Shown here in pieces: positions 856 through 7,126 of a DNA stretch of 64,000 bases (positions are counted from its first letter, which is position 1; each line of letters opens with the position of its first letter). The stretch comes from an uncultured Opitutia bacterium. Its GTDB lineage: Bacteria > Verrucomicrobiota > Verrucomicrobiia > Opitutales > Opitutaceae. The DNA is taken from contig CAIUOU010000110.1 in assembly GCA_903900845.1 (NCBI GenBank), positions 1-64,000 of the forward strand. The letters are read 5' to 3'. Both the position numbers and the translations under genes were made by a program. Under the pieces are notes generated by a model, which was given only the letters and a program-made list of their open reading frames with translations, did no database searches and was not told where the DNA came from.

Positions 856-1006
856 ACTCTACGGTCAAACTTACGGCTGAAGGCCATTGTTCGATCGGGA
901 ACTTCGACCACGGATTCCGCTGATGTCGCGGACGACCGGAAACGTCCGTTCGGCTTCCGATATGGGTTGGAGGCTTCGGAGCGTTGGGGGACCTTGGGCT
1001 TCTTTG

Positions 1007-1062
1007 CCTCCGTTACCTCCTGTTTCAAACCATCCAACAGGAGCAAACGGAGGTAACGGAGG
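1007..1062. repeat. CTCCGTTACC element, nested inverted repeat
   Basis: Outer arms of 14 perfect bp (1007-1020 with 1049-1062) share bases with an inner 8-bp stem (1017-1024 with 1036-1043), so two hairpins are mutually exclusive. The 26 bases at 1037-1062 are the exact reverse complement of 24694-24719, and one mismatched copy lies at 60183-60208. Confidence 0.8.
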
Positions 1063-1263
1063 GTCCTGCTTCTCTAAATCCGTGGTTGCCCCGGCTCGGT
1101 GGTTTGAGACCGGTCCCGGCGACTCATGCGACTCTTCGCAGCAATCCCGTTTCCGGCCCTCACCGCGGATCAACAGGTGCCTTCGGCGGGTGAACCGCGG
1201 AGATGTGCGCATCCGGGGGAGAATTGGTTTGGCGCGCGTCGGCTGCGGCGGTGAAATCTCCGC

Positions 1264-2391
1264 ATGCCCGAATCCGCCGAGCCAACCCGCGCCGTGGCGC
1301 GTGCCGCTTGGTCCGGGGAAGACCTCGCGGTGGTTGTCGAGGGCGTCTGGCGCGTGACCGCGCCGCGGCCCGCGTGGGAGACGGTGGTGGAGGGACGGAC
1401 GCCGGCAATTGTGCGTTTGCACGCCGGGGAGCTCGGCCGCTGGGACAGTTCGCTGCCGCTGTTTGTGTTCGCCGCGCAGCAATGGGCGCGGGAGCGCGGG
1501 ATCGCGTGCGACGCCGACGGTCTGCCGGCGAACCTGCGCGAGGTGCTGTCGCAGTTGGCACGCTCGCACGAGACCAGCGTGCCGGTCGACCGCGCGGAGA
1601 GTTTTCTCACGAACGTCGGCGTGGCGACCGCCGACACGCTGGCGAAGGCGCGCACGATCCTCGGCTTCGTGGGCGAATGCGTCCTCGGCGTGCAGCGGCT
1701 CGCGCGGCGCCCGGGGAAGTTCCGCTGGGGCGATTGCTTCGGCGAGATGCAGCAGTGCGGCGCGATGGCGCTGCCGATCGTGAGCCTCATCAGTTTCCTT
1801 GTCGGCGTGACACTCGCCTACACCGGCGCGCTGGTGCTGCGGCAATTTGGCGGCGACATCTGGATCGCCGACATGATCGGGCTGTCGATGGTGCGCGAGA
1901 TGGGCGCGGTGATGACGGGCGTGGTGCTGGCCGGCCGCACGGGCGCGGCGTTCGCCGCCACGCTCGGCAACATGAAGGCGGGCGAGGAGATCGACGCGCT
2001 CGAGACGCTCGGTATCTCGCCGGTGGAGTTCCTCGTGCTCCCGCGGATCCTCGCCCTCGCGGTGATGATGCCGCTGCTCACCATGTACGCCAACGCCCTC
2101 GGCATCCTTGGAGGCATGGTGGTGGCCTACGGGCTCCTCTCCATCCCGCCCGCGGCCTACTGGGTCGAGATGCTCACCATCGTCGACCTTTCCGACATCG
2201 CGTCGGGCTTTCTCAAAGCCGTCGCTTTCGGCGTGATCATCGGCCTGGCCGGCTGCCTGCGAGGCCTGCAGGCGGAACGCAGCGCGGCGGGCGTGGGCCA
2301 GGCGGCGACCTCGGCGGTGGTGACCGCACTGCTGCTGCTGGTGGTCGCCGACGCCTTGTTCGCGGTGATCTTCAACGCGCTGGGGATCTGA
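1264..2391 (+). CDS. MlaE-family ABC lipid-transport permease with N-terminal STAS-like domain
   Basis: Inner-membrane permease of an Mla/Mce-type phospholipid transporter. Residues about 18-110 form a STAS/MlaB-like domain fused to the permease. Residues about 150-375 are the MlaE core with several membrane segments and the family signature GRTGAAFAATLGNMKAGEE near 225-242, followed by IDALETLGI. In E. coli MlaB is a separate STAS protein, so the fusion explains its absence here. The gene heads an operon with an ATPase (8 bases downstream), an MCE protein and a lipoprotein. The ATG at 1264 was chosen because the following sequence matches the STAS start. No strong ribosome site is visible. 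Confidence 0.9.
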   Translation: MPESAEPTRAVARAAWSGEDLAVVVEGVWRVTAPRPAWETVVEGRTPAIVRLHAGELGRWDSSLPLFVFAAQQWARERGIACDADGLPANLREVLSQLARSHETSVPVDRAESFLTNVGVATADTLAKARTILGFVGECVLGVQRLARRPGKFRWGDCFGEMQQCGAMALPIVSLISFLVGVTLAYTGALVLRQFGGDIWIADMIGLSMVREMGAVMTGVVLAGRTGAAFAATLGNMKAGEEIDALETLGISPVEFLVLPRILALAVMMPLLTMYANALGILGGMVVAYGLLSIPPAAYWVEMLTIVDLSDIASGFLKAVAFGVIIGLAGCLRGLQAERSAAGVGQAATSAVVTALLLLVVADALFAVIFNALGI

Positions 2392-2398
2392 CGACGCG

Positions 2399-3169
2399 AT
2401 GACCGATAGCGCGCAGCCGCCGGCGGGACCGGCAATTGAGGTGGAGGGGCTGGAGTGCGCCTACGGCGGCGACGCGGTGTTGCGCAACGTGAGCTTCCGT
2501 GTCGCCCGCGGGGAGATCTTCTTCGTCATCGGCGGTTCGGGTTGCGGCAAAAGCACGCTGCTCCGCCACTTGGTGGGGCTCCACGCGCCCGCGAGCGGCA
2601 CCGTGCGCTTCCTCGGGCGTCCCTTCACCGACGCCGATCCCGCCGCGCGCCGCGAGCTGTTGCGGACGTTCGGCGTGCTTTATCAAGGCGGTGCGCTGTG
2701 GAGCTCGCTCACGCTCCGCCAGAACGTCGAGCTGCCGCTGGAGGAGTACACGGATCTGTGTCGTCGCGAGCTCGAGGAGCTCGCGACGCTGAAGCTCGCG
2801 CAGGTGGGGCTCCTGGGCTTCGAGGACTATTATCCCTCCGAGGTCAGCGGCGGTATGCGCAAGCGCGCCGGTCTCGCCCGCGCCCTCGCGCTGGACCCGG
2901 AGATCGTGTTCTTCGACGAACCTTCGGCCGGCCTCGACCCTGTGACGTCCCGGCGGCTCGACGACCTGATCCGCCAGGTGCGCGACACGTTCGGCACCAC
3001 GATCGTGGTGGTGTCCCATGAGCTCGCGTCGATCTTCGATCTGGCTGATCGCGCGATCATGCTCGATCGCGCCGAGAAAGGCATCATTGCCGAGGGCGCG
3101 CCGCGGGTCCTGCTCGAGTCCAGTCGTGATCCGCGCGTCCGGGAGTTCCTGACCCGTGGGGGCAAATGA
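2399..3169 (+). CDS. MlaF-like ABC transporter ATPase
   Basis: Cytoplasmic ATPase that should power the upstream MlaE-like permease. In 256 residues it shows Walker A GGSGCGKST (45-53), a Q-loop in LYQGGALW, ABC signature SGGMRKRAGLARA (150-162), Walker B IVFFDEPSAGLDP (169-181) and the switch histidine H207. The signature SGGMRKR, in place of the common SGGQ, is typical of the MlaF/Mce ATPases. Its stop overlaps the ATG of a 40-codon reading frame (ATGA at 3166-3169). Confidence 0.92.
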   Translation: MTDSAQPPAGPAIEVEGLECAYGGDAVLRNVSFRVARGEIFFVIGGSGCGKSTLLRHLVGLHAPASGTVRFLGRPFTDADPAARRELLRTFGVLYQGGALWSSLTLRQNVELPLEEYTDLCRRELEELATLKLAQVGLLGFEDYYPSEVSGGMRKRAGLARALALDPEIVFFDEPSAGLDPVTSRRLDDLIRQVRDTFGTTIVVVSHELASIFDLADRAIMLDRAEKGIIAEGAPRVLLESSRDPRVREFLTRGGK

Positions 3170-3288
3170 ACGCGCTCGCCACCGTCCCTCCCGCCGCTGA
3201 TCCTGCGAGCGACTTTCCCCGCGTGAACCCGTTCCGCCAGACCTCGCTTCCCGCGCCGCGCCCTCCGGGCGCCGTCCGCGCCGCATGA
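3166..3288 (+). CDS. Small ORF (40 aa) translationally coupled within the mla-type operon
   Basis: A 40-codon frame whose ATG overlaps the ATPase stop (ATGA at 3166-3169) and whose TGA overlaps the MCE-protein start (ATGA at 3285-3288). It exactly fills the gap between the two genes. The peptide starts MNALATVPPAADPASDF and is proline/alanine-rich with no membrane segment or known motif. Third codon positions are mostly G/C, which fits coding here but also the general base composition. It may be a real micro-protein of the transporter, or a frame kept open to pass ribosomes to the MCE gene. Function unknown. Confidence 0.45.
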   Translation: MNALATVPPAADPASDFPRVNPFRQTSLPAPRPPGAVRAA

Positions 3289-4286
3289 AGACCAAGATCA
3301 GTCCCGCGGTCATCGGCGCTTTCGTCATCGGCGGATTCGCGCTGCTGTTCCTCGCGCTGATCTCGTTCGGCGGCGTGAGCTTCTTTTCCAAGCCGCAGCG
3401 TTTCGTGGTGCTCTTCGACGAGTCCGTCCACGGGCTCGACCTGGGGTCCCCCGTGAAGCTCCGCGGCGTGCGCGTGGGCCGCGTGGTCGACCTCAATCTT
3501 CGCTACGAGGGTCGTTCGGGCCGCTCCGTCGTCGCGGTCGTGTGCGAGATCGGCAAGGACGTGATGACCGACGGACGCGGCGCCGGCATCGACGTCGCCA
3601 GCCGCGAGGAATTGCAGCGTCTCGTCGACCGCGGGCTACGTGCCCAGCTCGGCGTCCTCGGCCTCGCCACGGGCATGCTCTACGTCGAGCTCGACATCGT
3701 CGATCCGAAGGAATTTCCGGCCGACAAAGGCTCGACTGATGGTAGCTACGTGGTGGTACCCGCGCTGCCTTCGGCGATCTCCGCGTTCCAGGCCAGCGCC
3801 TCGGAGATCCTGTCGCAGATCAAGCGAGTCGATTTCAATGGACTGACGGAGGAGTTGAAGGCGCTTGCGTCGCAGACCCGGCGCCAGATGGCCGAGGTCG
3901 ACGTGCGTGCGACCGTCGATCAATGGCGGAAGGCGGGCGCGGCGCTTGAGGCCCTCGCCGCCGACCCCGCCATCCGGCGTACGCTCGACGAGCTGAACGG
4001 TGCGGCCAAGGATGTCCGGGCGGCGGTGGCGCGGCTCGATGGGCAGATCGAGCCGGCGGGCCGCGAACTGGCGCAGACCATGGCGGAAGTGCGCCGATCG
4101 CTGCAGGCCTTCAACGCGGCGGCTGATTCGACCCGGGGCTTCATCGCGGCGCAGTCGGGCCTCGGAGCCGACGTGGGAGTCACGCTCGGGCGGCTCAACG
4201 AGGCGGCGGATGCCGTGGCGCGGCTCGCCGAGTTCATCGAACGCAATCCGAACGCGTTGTTGACCGGTCGTCGTCGCGCGCCCTGA
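3285..4286 (+). CDS. MlaD-like MCE-domain substrate-binding protein
   Basis: Membrane-anchored periplasmic component of the Mla/Mce lipid transporter, 333 residues. An N-terminal membrane anchor (about 8-30) is followed by a single MCE domain (about 38-142) with the typical start FVVLFDESVHGLDLGSPVKL, the GVRVGRV turn and LGVLGLATGMLYVEL. A long, largely helical C-terminal region (about 160-330) rich in Ala, Arg and Glu follows and probably forms a coiled coil or tube extension. The single MCE domain plus long tail is closer to MlaD/TGD2-type proteins than to multi-MCE PqiB or LetB. Confidence 0.9.
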   Translation: MKTKISPAVIGAFVIGGFALLFLALISFGGVSFFSKPQRFVVLFDESVHGLDLGSPVKLRGVRVGRVVDLNLRYEGRSGRSVVAVVCEIGKDVMTDGRGAGIDVASREELQRLVDRGLRAQLGVLGLATGMLYVELDIVDPKEFPADKGSTDGSYVVVPALPSAISAFQASASEILSQIKRVDFNGLTEELKALASQTRRQMAEVDVRATVDQWRKAGAALEALAADPAIRRTLDELNGAAKDVRAAVARLDGQIEPAGRELAQTMAEVRRSLQAFNAAADSTRGFIAAQSGLGADVGVTLGRLNEAADAVARLAEFIERNPNALLTGRRRAP

Positions 4287-4302
4287 AGCGAATCTCTCAG
4301 CC

Positions 4303-4887
4303 ATGAAACCGTTCTGCCGTTACCCGCTGGCCCGCGCCGCGCTGACCGTCGCGATGCTTCCGTTCGCGGGTTGCACGCTCTTTCCGGAAGCCCGGCCGGA
4401 TCCCACGCGGTTTTTCATTCTTCCGGCAGAGGTTGGCGCGACCACGCCCGTGGCGATGGCGCTGACGCTGCGGCCGGTCGAGGTCGCCGCGTATCTGCGC
4501 AACCGGCCCATGGTGGTGCGGCGGGGCGCGAGCGAGATCGAGTTCCGCGAACACGCGCGGTGGGGTGAACCGCTGGAGCACGGCTTGGCGCGGGTACTGT
4601 CCGCGGGACTGCGCGCCCGTGGGGTCAGCGCGGTCCCGGCGGGCGCGGCTGCGCCGGTGTTGGCGGTGCGGGTGCTGGCGTGCGAAGGCGCGGCTGATGG
4701 CTCGGTGATCTTTCGCGCCGCGTGGGAATTAACCGGCGGAGCTTCCCGGGTGACGGGAGACTTTTCGGCTTCGGGCCTGCGATGGGACGTGAAGTCGGAA
4801 GCCTCGCTGGCCATCCAGCTCGGCGCAGCCGCGCTGGCGCTGGCGGACGATATCGCCGCAACCGCCCCGCTCAAGGCGCCCCGCTAA
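4303..4887 (+). CDS. ABC-type transport auxiliary lipoprotein (PqiC/DUF330-like)
   Basis: 194-residue predicted lipoprotein. The signal peptide ends in a lipobox-like FAGC with the lipidated Cys at residue 24, and the mature part begins with RPDPTRFFILPA, the hallmark start of the ABC-transport auxiliary component family (PF03886). Such proteins stand between MCE systems and the outer membrane, a role played by MlaA/MlaC or PqiC in proteobacteria. It is the last gene of the operon. Its TAA stop lies inside the left arm of a 26-bp inverted repeat, so that element sits immediately on the end of the gene. Confidence 0.82.
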   Translation: MKPFCRYPLARAALTVAMLPFAGCTLFPEARPDPTRFFILPAEVGATTPVAMALTLRPVEVAAYLRNRPMVVRRGASEIEFREHARWGEPLEHGLARVLSAGLRARGVSAVPAGAAAPVLAVRVLACEGAADGSVIFRAAWELTGGASRVTGDFSASGLRWDVKSEASLAIQLGAAALALADDIAATAPLKAPR

Positions 4888-4952
4888 AGGGGTCAGGGCG
4901 TTGAACGTTTGGATCGCCGAGGGATTAAACGTTCAACGCCCTGACCCCTTTA
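4885..4952. repeat. GGGGTCAGGGCGTT inverted repeat, copy 1 (26-bp perfect arms)
   Basis: Arms 4885-4910 and 4927-4952 are perfect reverse complements of 26 bp around a 16-base spacer. The core GGGGTCAGGGCGTT is shared with copies at 5054-5128 and 45987-46024. The left arm begins with the stop codon of the lipoprotein gene. It could end that transcript, but there is no T-run after the stem, so I read it mainly as a dispersed repeat. Confidence 0.85.
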
Positions 4953-5053
4953 GGTGTCGCTGGAGGGCAACAATGCGTTTAACCGGCTGGTAGAGAGAAT
5001 TTTAAGATTTCTGTCTCGGAAGGATCATCAGGCGGCCAGCTTTCCCCCTCTCA

Positions 5054-5128
5054 AAAGGGGTCAGGGCGTTTTTTGTTTTTTGGGAGTAAAACCGCGAGGA
5101 ATTAAACGTTCAACGCCCTGACCCCTTT
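5054..5128. repeat. GGGGTCAGGGCGTT inverted repeat, copy 2
   Basis: Arms AAAGGGGTCAGGGCGTT (5054-5070) and its reverse complement (5112-5128) enclose a 41-base spacer containing T-rich TTTTTTGTTTTTT. The right side matches the 26-base right arm of copy 1 (AAACGTTCAACGCCC...), while the left arm is shorter, as if partly eroded. Confidence 0.8.
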
Positions 5129-5157
5129 GGGGTGAGGCTGACCCCTTTGGGGTGAGG
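5118..5157. repeat. 20-bp tandem duplication
   Basis: CTGACCCCTTTGGGGTGAGG occurs twice back to back (5118-5137 and 5138-5157). The first unit overlaps the right arm of the neighbouring inverted repeat, so the duplication involves the repeat end plus its flank. Confidence 0.85.
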
Positions 5158-5258
5158 GGTGGTTTTTCCGTAGGTCTTCTTGCTATGGGCGAATGGGGTT
5201 TTATACCCACGGGTCGGGGGCCGGCCTTGCTGGGCAACCTGCCTCTTTTTCCAAACGC

Positions 5259-5726
5259 ATGAACTCATTCTCCCGCCTCGTCGTCTTCCAAGTTGAGGAC
5301 GGGCGTTACGGGGTGCGGTTTGAGGATGTCGAGCGGGTGGTTGCGGCGGTGGAGTTGGTGCCTTTGCCCGACGCCCCGGATTTGGTGCTCGGGGTGTTCA
5401 ATCTTCAGGGCAACGTGGTGCCCGCGATCGACACGCGTCTCAGGCTCCGGCTTCCCTCCCGTGAGCTCCGGGTTTCCGACCAATTTCTGGTGGTGCGCGC
5501 GGCCGGCCGAGTGCTGGCGCTCGTCACCGACCGGGTACAGGGCATCGTTGAGGCGGCCGCGTTGGAGGTGACCGCAACCGATCACGTGGTGCCCGGGCTG
5601 CCGGGGGTGGAAGGCGTGCTGCGGTTACCAGATGGCGTCGTCGTCATCCACGACCTGGCGCGTTTCTTGTCGGCGGAGGACGGTCTGCGTTTGGACGCCG
5701 CGCGAAGGAGGCTGGCGTCGGTATGA
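5259..5726 (+). CDS. CheW-like adaptor (WspB/WspD-type), first in operon
   Basis: 155-residue single CheW domain that couples chemoreceptors to CheA. It shows the usual segments: LVVFQVEDGRYGV at the N-terminus, VLGVFNLQGNVVPAIDTR in the middle, and LVTDRVQGIVEA. An upstream in-frame ATG at 5193 would add a 22-residue tail unlike CheW, so the ATG at 5259 is preferred. It overlaps cheR by 4 bp (ATGA at 5723). It is one of two CheW proteins in the operon, as in Wsp-type systems. Confidence 0.9.
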   Translation: MNSFSRLVVFQVEDGRYGVRFEDVERVVAAVELVPLPDAPDLVLGVFNLQGNVVPAIDTRLRLRLPSRELRVSDQFLVVRAAGRVLALVTDRVQGIVEAAALEVTATDHVVPGLPGVEGVLRLPDGVVVIHDLARFLSAEDGLRLDAARRRLASV

Positions 5727-7126
5727 GAAGCGCGGCTTCCCCGTCCCGGTTCGAGGAACTGAGTCTGCTGATCGCTGGCCGGCTGGGATTGCATTTTCCG
5801 GCGGCCCGGTTGCGCACCATGGAAAACGCGCTCGGCGAGGCCGCTCGCATCGCGGGTCATGGGACAACCACGGCCTTCCTCGACGCGCTGCTTCGTCCCT
5901 CCCCACCCGACGAATTGTTCGACGCCCTCGTGCGCGAGCTGACCGTGGGAGAGACTTATTTCTTCCGCGAACCCGCGGTGTTCGCGGCGATCAGGGAGCA
6001 GTTCCTGCCGGAGTGGTCGCGCCGCTGGGCCCACCGGATGGCGCTGCCGCGTTTCTGGAGCGCCGGCTGCTGCAGCGGTGAGGAGGCTTTCACGCTGGCT
6101 ATCGCGCTCGAGCGCGTCGGGTTTCCTGCGCCGGAACGAGCGGAGATCCTCGCGAGCGACCTCAATCCCCACTTCCTGCGCCTGGCGCGCGAGGGAATCT
6201 ACCGGCCGTGGTCCTTCCGCGGGGCACCCGACTGGCTGCGCGCGGGTTACTTCCGCGCGGTGGACGGCGAACGCCTGGAGGTCCGCGGAGACATTCGGCG
6301 CGCCGTGCGTTTCCAACGCCTGAACCTGGCCGGTTCGGGTTTTCCCGCGACGGACAACGGCACCGCGCACGTCGACCTCATCCTTTGCCGCAACGTCCTG
6401 ATGTATTTCACGCCGGAGCGGCTCGCGCGGACCGCGGCGCGGCTCGCGGATTGCCTCAACGAAGGCGGTTGGCTGGTCGTTGGCGCCGCGGAGACGGGCC
6501 ACATCGAAGTCCCGGGTCTCGCGCCGGCGCGATTCGGTGACCTGACGGTTTTCGTCAAGGGCGGAGCGCGGACCCGGTCGAAGCCGCCGGTCGCCCCTTC
6601 CGCGCGCGTCGTCGATCCCGCCGCGATCGTGGCGCCCGCCCCGATGACGCTCCCGTCGCGGACTTTGCCGGTTCCGCCGCTCCCGGAAAACCCGCCTCCT
6701 TCAATCGACGAGGTGAGGCGGCTCGCCAGCGCCGGTGAACGCGTGGCGGCCCTCGCCCTGTGCGATCGCCTGTTGCGCGGTGATCGGATAAACACCATCG
6801 CGCACTTCCTTCGGGCCACGATCCTGCTGGAGCAGGGTAATTCCGCCGAGGCTGAGGCGGCTTTGCGCCGCGCCCTTTACCTTGAGCCGGATTTTGTGGC
6901 CGCCCTCCTGATCCTCGGGCAGACGGCGCGGGCCGCGGGTCGCGCCGCCGTGGCGGACCGTCACCTGCGGACGACCCTCCGGCTGGTGTCCGCCCTCGAT
7001 CCGCAGGCCGTCCTGCCCGAGACCGACGGGATGACGGCCGGCCGGATGGCCGAAACCCTCGCCCTGCTCGTCGCGGACCGGCCCGTTCATTCCCGCCGGT
7101 CCGCTCCGGTAGCCACCGCCGCATGA
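5723..7126 (+). CDS. CheR-type receptor methyltransferase with C-terminal TPR region (WspC-like)
   Basis: 467-residue fusion. Residues about 8-270 are a CheR S-adenosylmethionine-dependent methyltransferase that methylates glutamates on chemoreceptors: RELTVGETYFFRE (71-83), SAM-binding FWSAGCCSGEEAF (111-123) and LILCRNVLMYF (219-229). A Pro/Ala-rich linker leads to a C-terminal part (about 320-435) with TPR-like helices such as ATILLEQGNSAEAEAALRRA. CheR with a TPR tail is typical of WspC and related alternative-function systems, not of flagellar CheR. It is coupled by ATGA overlaps on both sides. Confidence 0.9.
   Translation: MRSAASPSRFEELSLLIAGRLGLHFPAARLRTMENALGEAARIAGHGTTTAFLDALLRPSPPDELFDALVRELTVGETYFFREPAVFAAIREQFLPEWSRRWAHRMALPRFWSAGCCSGEEAFTLAIALERVGFPAPERAEILASDLNPHFLRLAREGIYRPWSFRGAPDWLRAGYFRAVDGERLEVRGDIRRAVRFQRLNLAGSGFPATDNGTAHVDLILCRNVLMYFTPERLARTAARLADCLNEGGWLVVGAAETGHIEVPGLAPARFGDLTVFVKGGARTRSKPPVAPSARVVDPAAIVAPAPMTLPSRTLPVPPLPENPPPSIDEVRRLASAGERVAALALCDRLLRGDRINTIAHFLRATILLEQGNSAEAEAALRRALYLEPDFVAALLILGQTARAAGRAAVADRHLRTTLRLVSALDPQAVLPETDGMTAGRMAETLALLVADRPVHSRRSAPVATAA

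Follow-up and report, generated by a model that had tools for sequence, protein, structure and literature searches.

In the stretch of DNA analysed here (the window: 64,000 nucleotides (nt) of contig CAIUOU010000110.1, from an uncultured Opitutia bacterium of the family Opitutaceae), a short frame between an mlaF-like and an mlaD-like gene is probably a relay, that is, a bridging open reading frame (ORF) that leads ribosomes into mlaD by termination and re-initiation across a long spacer. Positions 3166-3288 form one uninterrupted frame of 40 codons, MNALATVPPAADPASDFPRVNPFRQTSLPAPRPPGAVRAA. The original prediction, made from the letters of the window, described the gap as a single open frame with ATGA at both ends, and the coordinates bear this out. 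The ATG of the relay (3166-3168) overlaps the TGA of mlaF (3167-3169), and its own TGA (3286-3288) overlaps the ATG of mlaD (3285-3287). The 4-nt overlap of stop and start that marks a termination-reinitiation junction is thus found at both 3166 and 3285. Ribosomes ending mlaF would re-initiate at the overlapping ATGA at 3166, cross the spacer while making a throwaway peptide, stop at the second ATGA and start again on mlaD. Selection would keep the frame free of stops and ending at the mlaD start, and the sequence of the peptide, its length and the origin of the spacer would be largely free. Comparison with relatives suggests this on four grounds: avoidance of stops in the relevant frame, in-frame ATGs beside the mlaF stop, a nearly neutral peptide, and little or no bias of this kind at other junctions. 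Translation of the frame is inferred, as is re-initiation, and not shielding of the mRNA against polarity, as the selected trait. Coupling in E. coli and Haloferax is described as nearly abolished at a spacing of about 20 nt (PMC10666635), and a relay would therefore be useful across a long spacer.

The comparison was made on mlaF-mlaD junctions of the family, taken mainly by similarity of MlaD; 232 of the 252 family genomes have a match, and distant ones are under-sampled. A first set comprised 111 junctions, after exclusion of L061-L065 as duplicates and of L002, which has no mlaF. The full set keeps 148 junctions out of 159. The 11 excluded are duplicates of species already included (L061-L065, L132 and L141), L161 with its gap of 415 nt, which may contain a separate gene, and L154, L165 and L167, in which the start or the overlap is unclear. 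L147 (genome G076) was retained despite its unclear mlaD start; there an ATG at the ATGA of mlaF continues into the mlaD frame, with a Pro/Ala-rich N-terminal extension of MlaD of about 29 residues. Gap length ranges from -4 (8 junctions) to 253 nt; 135 gaps measure at least 15 nt, 77 of them 15-59 nt and 58 at least 60 nt. Three frames were distinguished in each gap: the frame of mlaD, the frame that ends at the XTGA of the mlaD start (the XTGA frame), and the third frame.

Stops are avoided in the XTGA frame. Across the 135 gaps of at least 15 nt it holds 19 stop triplets; the mlaD frame has 80 and the third frame 83. In long gaps (at least 60 nt) it is stop-free in 50 of 58, the other frames in 22 and 16, and shuffled sequences in about 25. 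When stops are averaged by genus, the XTGA frame has fewer in 16 of 19 genera, more in none, and ties in three (sign test p 3e-5; relabelling of frames p 5e-5). The placement of ATGs follows the same frame. Among ATGs that start between -6 and +21 from the end of the mlaF stop in long gaps, the XTGA frame has 43 and the other two have 10 and 7, and a near-stop ATG is open exactly to mlaD in 36 of the 58 genomes, where 6.7 are expected. This is seen also without ATGA at the end of mlaF: the 24 long-gap genomes of this kind have 13 near-stop ATGs in the XTGA frame versus 2 and 3. An mlaF that ends in ATGA is combined with a gap of at least 15 nt in 38 genomes; in 27 of these the frame runs open exactly to mlaD, where 6.1 would be expected. 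In G203 (L034), three mini-ORFs of 6, 8 and 16 codons are chained by successive overlaps. On a FastTree tree of the family, with low support on 46 of 144 inner branches, the state of having a one-link relay changes 22 times, so that the relay does not look like a single inherited event. The original prediction had offered a re-initiation device as one of two readings, and the open frames and ATGs of the long gaps support it.

As a control, 1.25 Mb from four family genomes including this one were searched, with genes called by a simple finder based on codon usage. Gene pairs on the same strand, with an XTGA start and a gap of 60-250 nt, were taken after exclusion of mlaF-mlaD junctions (n=92, 7 from this genome). 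In these pairs the mlaD-equivalent, XTGA and third frames have 65, 54 and 61 stops, are open in 44, 52 and 45 cases, and hold 7, 8 and 6 near-stop ATGs; relay-like junctions number 4 of 92. In this sample, then, only mlaF-mlaD shows a strong frame constraint, and other junctions show a slight trend at most. A control within the same operon, from mlaD to the lipoprotein gene, gave 1, 5 and 9 stops on just 9 usable junctions. Shine-Dalgarno-like cores precede mlaD in 8 of 135 relatives. They are also rare before other genes in four such genomes (14/102, 26/232, 36/300 and 44/307), and their absence at mlaD is therefore not special.

The test was extended to other families of the order, where 49 loci were tried. 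No mlaF was found in 7, and 28 of the remaining 42 have an XTGA start and a gap of at least 30 nt. In these 28 junctions the XTGA frame is open in 15, the others in 3 and 7, with 9-10 each in shuffles; near-stop ATGs number 13 in the XTGA frame versus 1 and 7. Relays of 27-30 codons running from ATGA to ATGA occur in three genomes of one other family. In another observation from outside the family, the relays of L200 and L201, which have a gap of 85 nt, differ at 3 of 93 bases, while the synonymous sites of mlaD differ by 34%. This gap contains TTGCAC...TATAAT, and the DNA of this relay may itself be constrained.

Several results weigh against a relay. By a stricter count, a stop interrupts the XTGA frame in 9 of the 58 long gaps; the one case that separates this from 50 of 58 is L049, with a stop that shares one base with the mlaD start. 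No near-stop ATG open to mlaD is found in 22 of the 58. When the last 24 nt of the gaps are masked, 13 genera have fewer stops in the XTGA frame, 3 more, and 3 tie, and the sign test weakens to p 0.021; the relabelling p is still 0.0004. An ATGA stop of mlaF and the open frame are weakly associated (with gap length mod 3, Fisher p 0.06) because the frame is also open in many genomes without ATGA, and independent pairs gave no significant result (median p values of 0.22 and 0.25). A more distant second batch yielded 3 cases of ATGA with a gap of at least 15 nt: one open, one closed, and one with an N-terminal extension of mlaD. In the other families, the stops (42, 22 and 29, with 22 in the XTGA frame) show weak contrast to the third frame. 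Among the short gaps of 15-59 nt, an ATG relay is present in 11 of 77 and absent from 66, and most gaps of 25-59 nt are without one despite exceeding the reported limit of coupling. Since many of the relay-less short gaps exceed 20 nt, mlaD is evidently expressible without a relay. The XTGA frame is nevertheless stop-free in 71 of these 77, the others in 45 and 62, and shuffles in about 60. The original prediction had held that relatives in which the gap varies out of frame or contains stops, with both neighbours conserved, would speak against it. Here the outcome is mixed: gap length does vary and short gaps lack the ORF, and long gaps keep the frame.

The features of the locus, all on the forward strand, are as follows.

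1264 to 2391, forward: mlaE-like permease gene (Pfam MlaE 1.4e-70).
2399 to 3169, forward: mlaF-like ATPase gene, with AAATGA at its 3' end (Pfam ABC_tran 2e-28; sequence).
3166 to 3169, forward: first ATGA, where the start of the putative relay ORF overlaps the mlaF stop (sequence; mlaF ends in ATGA in 40/111 relatives).
3166 to 3288, forward: putative relay ORF of 40 codons, its frame conserved and its peptide not (sequence and comparison with relatives).
3285 to 3288, forward: second ATGA, where the mlaD start overlaps the stop of the relay (forced by the conserved MlaD start; XTGA in 111/111 relatives).
3285 to 4286, forward: mlaD/MCE-like gene, with no Shine-Dalgarno-like core directly upstream (Pfam MlaD 1.2e-9; upstream bases).
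4303 to 4887, forward: gene for an ABC-type transport auxiliary lipoprotein, next in the operon (Pfam ABC_trans_aux 1.1e-19).

The window taken singly makes a weak case. The original prediction regarded two 4-bp junctions on one short frame as unlikely by chance, and part of this argument does not hold. The second ATGA is uninformative, since MlaD has a conserved start that dictates it; the second codon of MlaD is Lys in 106 of the 111 relatives. The first is common, as the count in the feature list indicates. Given the first, the probability that the gap is open to the XTGA of mlaD is 0.24 (shuffles, random length). With a forced second junction and such a probability, a single sequence proves little. 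A functionless open frame is one alternative, in which a GC-rich spacer happens to combine a forced ATGA with a lucky one, and substitutions in the peptide do look neutral. It is set against the family-wide, frame-specific avoidance of stops and placement of ATGs, and against a bias that is slight at most in the 92 other gene pairs. Chance is an unlikely explanation for this frame, and pure chance as the main account was rejected on the frame-specific constraint together with the control pairs. What is weak from the window sequence becomes a strong case with the comparative data.

The spacer could also be open for a reason other than re-initiation, namely to protect the mRNA from polarity through Rho, or because it carries a promoter of mlaD. 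Translation across the spacer would limit the access of Rho. In 43 of 135 relatives, TA is found 15 bases before the mlaD start (at -15). Among these 43, CTGTC occurs at -45 to -29 in 14 and CTTCCC or CTTTCCC in 20 more (34 of 43), with a spacing like that of a promoter. The arrangement sits in the last 48 bases before mlaD, for example in L107, L073 and L145, and resembles a promoter whose leader would be very short or absent. Relay and TA at -15 occur together in 9 genomes. More MlaD than MlaF is required (hexamer versus dimer in E. coli), and this may be why some lineages also have the promoter-like element. Against this alternative, openness is specific to the frame that leads out at the mlaD start, and both the window and its nearest relative (G213) lack TA at -15 of mlaD. 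A scan of positions 3050-3400 for promoters and terminators, which covered the sigma-70 type and not other promoter types, gave nothing. Polarity or a promoter appears a rather improbable reason for the open frame.

As for where the spacers came from, relays may have arisen repeatedly from mostly unrelated DNA wherever the mlaF-mlaD spacer grew long, with selection on the frame only and with some relays reading through an embedded promoter-like element of mlaD; on the present comparison we give this fuller scenario an even chance. A DNA search of the window's own genome returned the locus itself and otherwise matches of at most 44 bases. Insertion of a dispersed repeat, such as the mycobacterial MIRUs, was thereby rejected as the origin of the spacer in this genome. 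The spacers of L019 (GTCATTGCGAGGAGCG), L117, L124 and L087 contain sequence resembling dispersed repeats, and spacers may grow by repeat insertion. Within the window, repeated palindrome-like units on GGGGTCAGGGCGTT...AACGCCCTGACCCC lie at 4880-5160, 3' of the lipoprotein gene; they are possibly REP-like, and the nearest relative shows a similar unit in L052.

The peptide was examined as a product in its own right, since the original prediction had also proposed a micro-subunit of the lipid transporter. In G213, whose MlaD is 90% identical, both junctions and all 40 codons are kept without an indel, and the first residues of the window's 40-mer are akin to those of G205 (MNALAT/MNTLAT). This is what a functional micro-protein would lead one to expect; the substitutions are not. 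Between G213 and the window, 17 codons of the relay differ, 16 of them nonsynonymously and 1 synonymously. The relay has dN 0.27 and dS 0.22, MlaD 0.054 and 0.55, and the mlaF tail 0.017 and 0.50. When six close pairs that have relays are pooled, dN/dS is 0.81 for the relay, 0.07 for the head of MlaD and 0.05 for the mlaF tail. The purifying selection that characterises a conserved small protein is thus not seen, and the peptide sequence is unlikely to be a target of selection. The 47 relay peptides of the family are 7-79 residues long and share no hydrophobic segment, and only two matches, of 8 and 10 residues, join peptides of different genera. The 40-mer itself has no Pfam match, unlike its four neighbours. 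A direct overlap of -4 in 8 of 148 relatives, and the 66 short gaps without an ATG relay, also speak against a subunit. A micro-protein is very improbable, and a conserved one was rejected on the substitution pattern and the missing similarity between relay peptides. A peptide left free while the frame and its exit are constrained is the hallmark of a short ORF that delivers ribosomes, and dN/dS of 0.81 with avoidance of stops conforms to it. A frameshift or stop readthrough that extends MlaF at its C terminus up to mlaD is the least credible account. In its favour, the XTGA frame is the -1 frame of mlaF when gap length mod 3 is 1; against it, relays are found at gap lengths mod 3 of 0, 1 and 2, the XTGA frame is enriched in ATGs and the extensions that would result show no conservation.

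Some further observations concern the locus and its relatives. An Rfam scan of positions 1000-6000 gave nothing at gathering scores. The nearest named relatives of the locus are one metagenome-assembled genome (MAG) of Verrucomicrobiota and several MAGs of Opitutaceae. L002 is a second 3' fragment of mlaD with 67% identity; it lies at one end of C148, a small contig of the same assembly (G000), and is perhaps contamination from a related species. In L023 (G141) the mlaD match is reported with one in-frame TAG.

If relays did arise repeatedly with selection on the frame only, a small ORF whose peptide evolves neutrally can still have a function, and such ORFs would be lost to the dN/dS filters commonly applied to small proteins. 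Near-neutral dN/dS does not make a small ORF unused. The junctions would also supply comparative evidence that nature uses bridging ORFs with an irrelevant peptide, an arrangement proposed in a review for upstream ORFs and MIRUs and built by engineers. They bear further on whether post-termination ribosomes scan long spacers, since here long spacers tend to carry a relay exact in frame.

Three known systems come close to the proposed relay. First, ATGA and TGATG overlaps couple neighbouring genes, often for subunits of one complex, as described by Huber et al. (PMC6728339, PMC10666635). The same termination-reinitiation would act at each junction of a relay, but the relay would join two full genes through an intermediate short ORF and not directly. 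Second, a review describes short ORFs that deliver the ribosome to the next gene, and mycobacterial MIRUs that insert at start codons and maintain coupling by an ORF of their own (PMC12548453). Unlike MIRUs as described there, which are dispersed repeats, the relay gap is not repeated in comparable form elsewhere in its genome, and most relay peptides show no relation from one genus to another. Third, in the engineered bicistronic design a short leader ORF likewise leads into the gene of interest; the relay would be natural, and is placed between two operon genes. A literature search joining mlaD, mlaF and translational coupling, not aimed at relay ORFs, found one paper, on riboswitch identification. 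The difference from what is known would be an intermediate ORF between genes for subunits, in spacers mostly unrelated between genera, with selection apparently acting on the frame alone.
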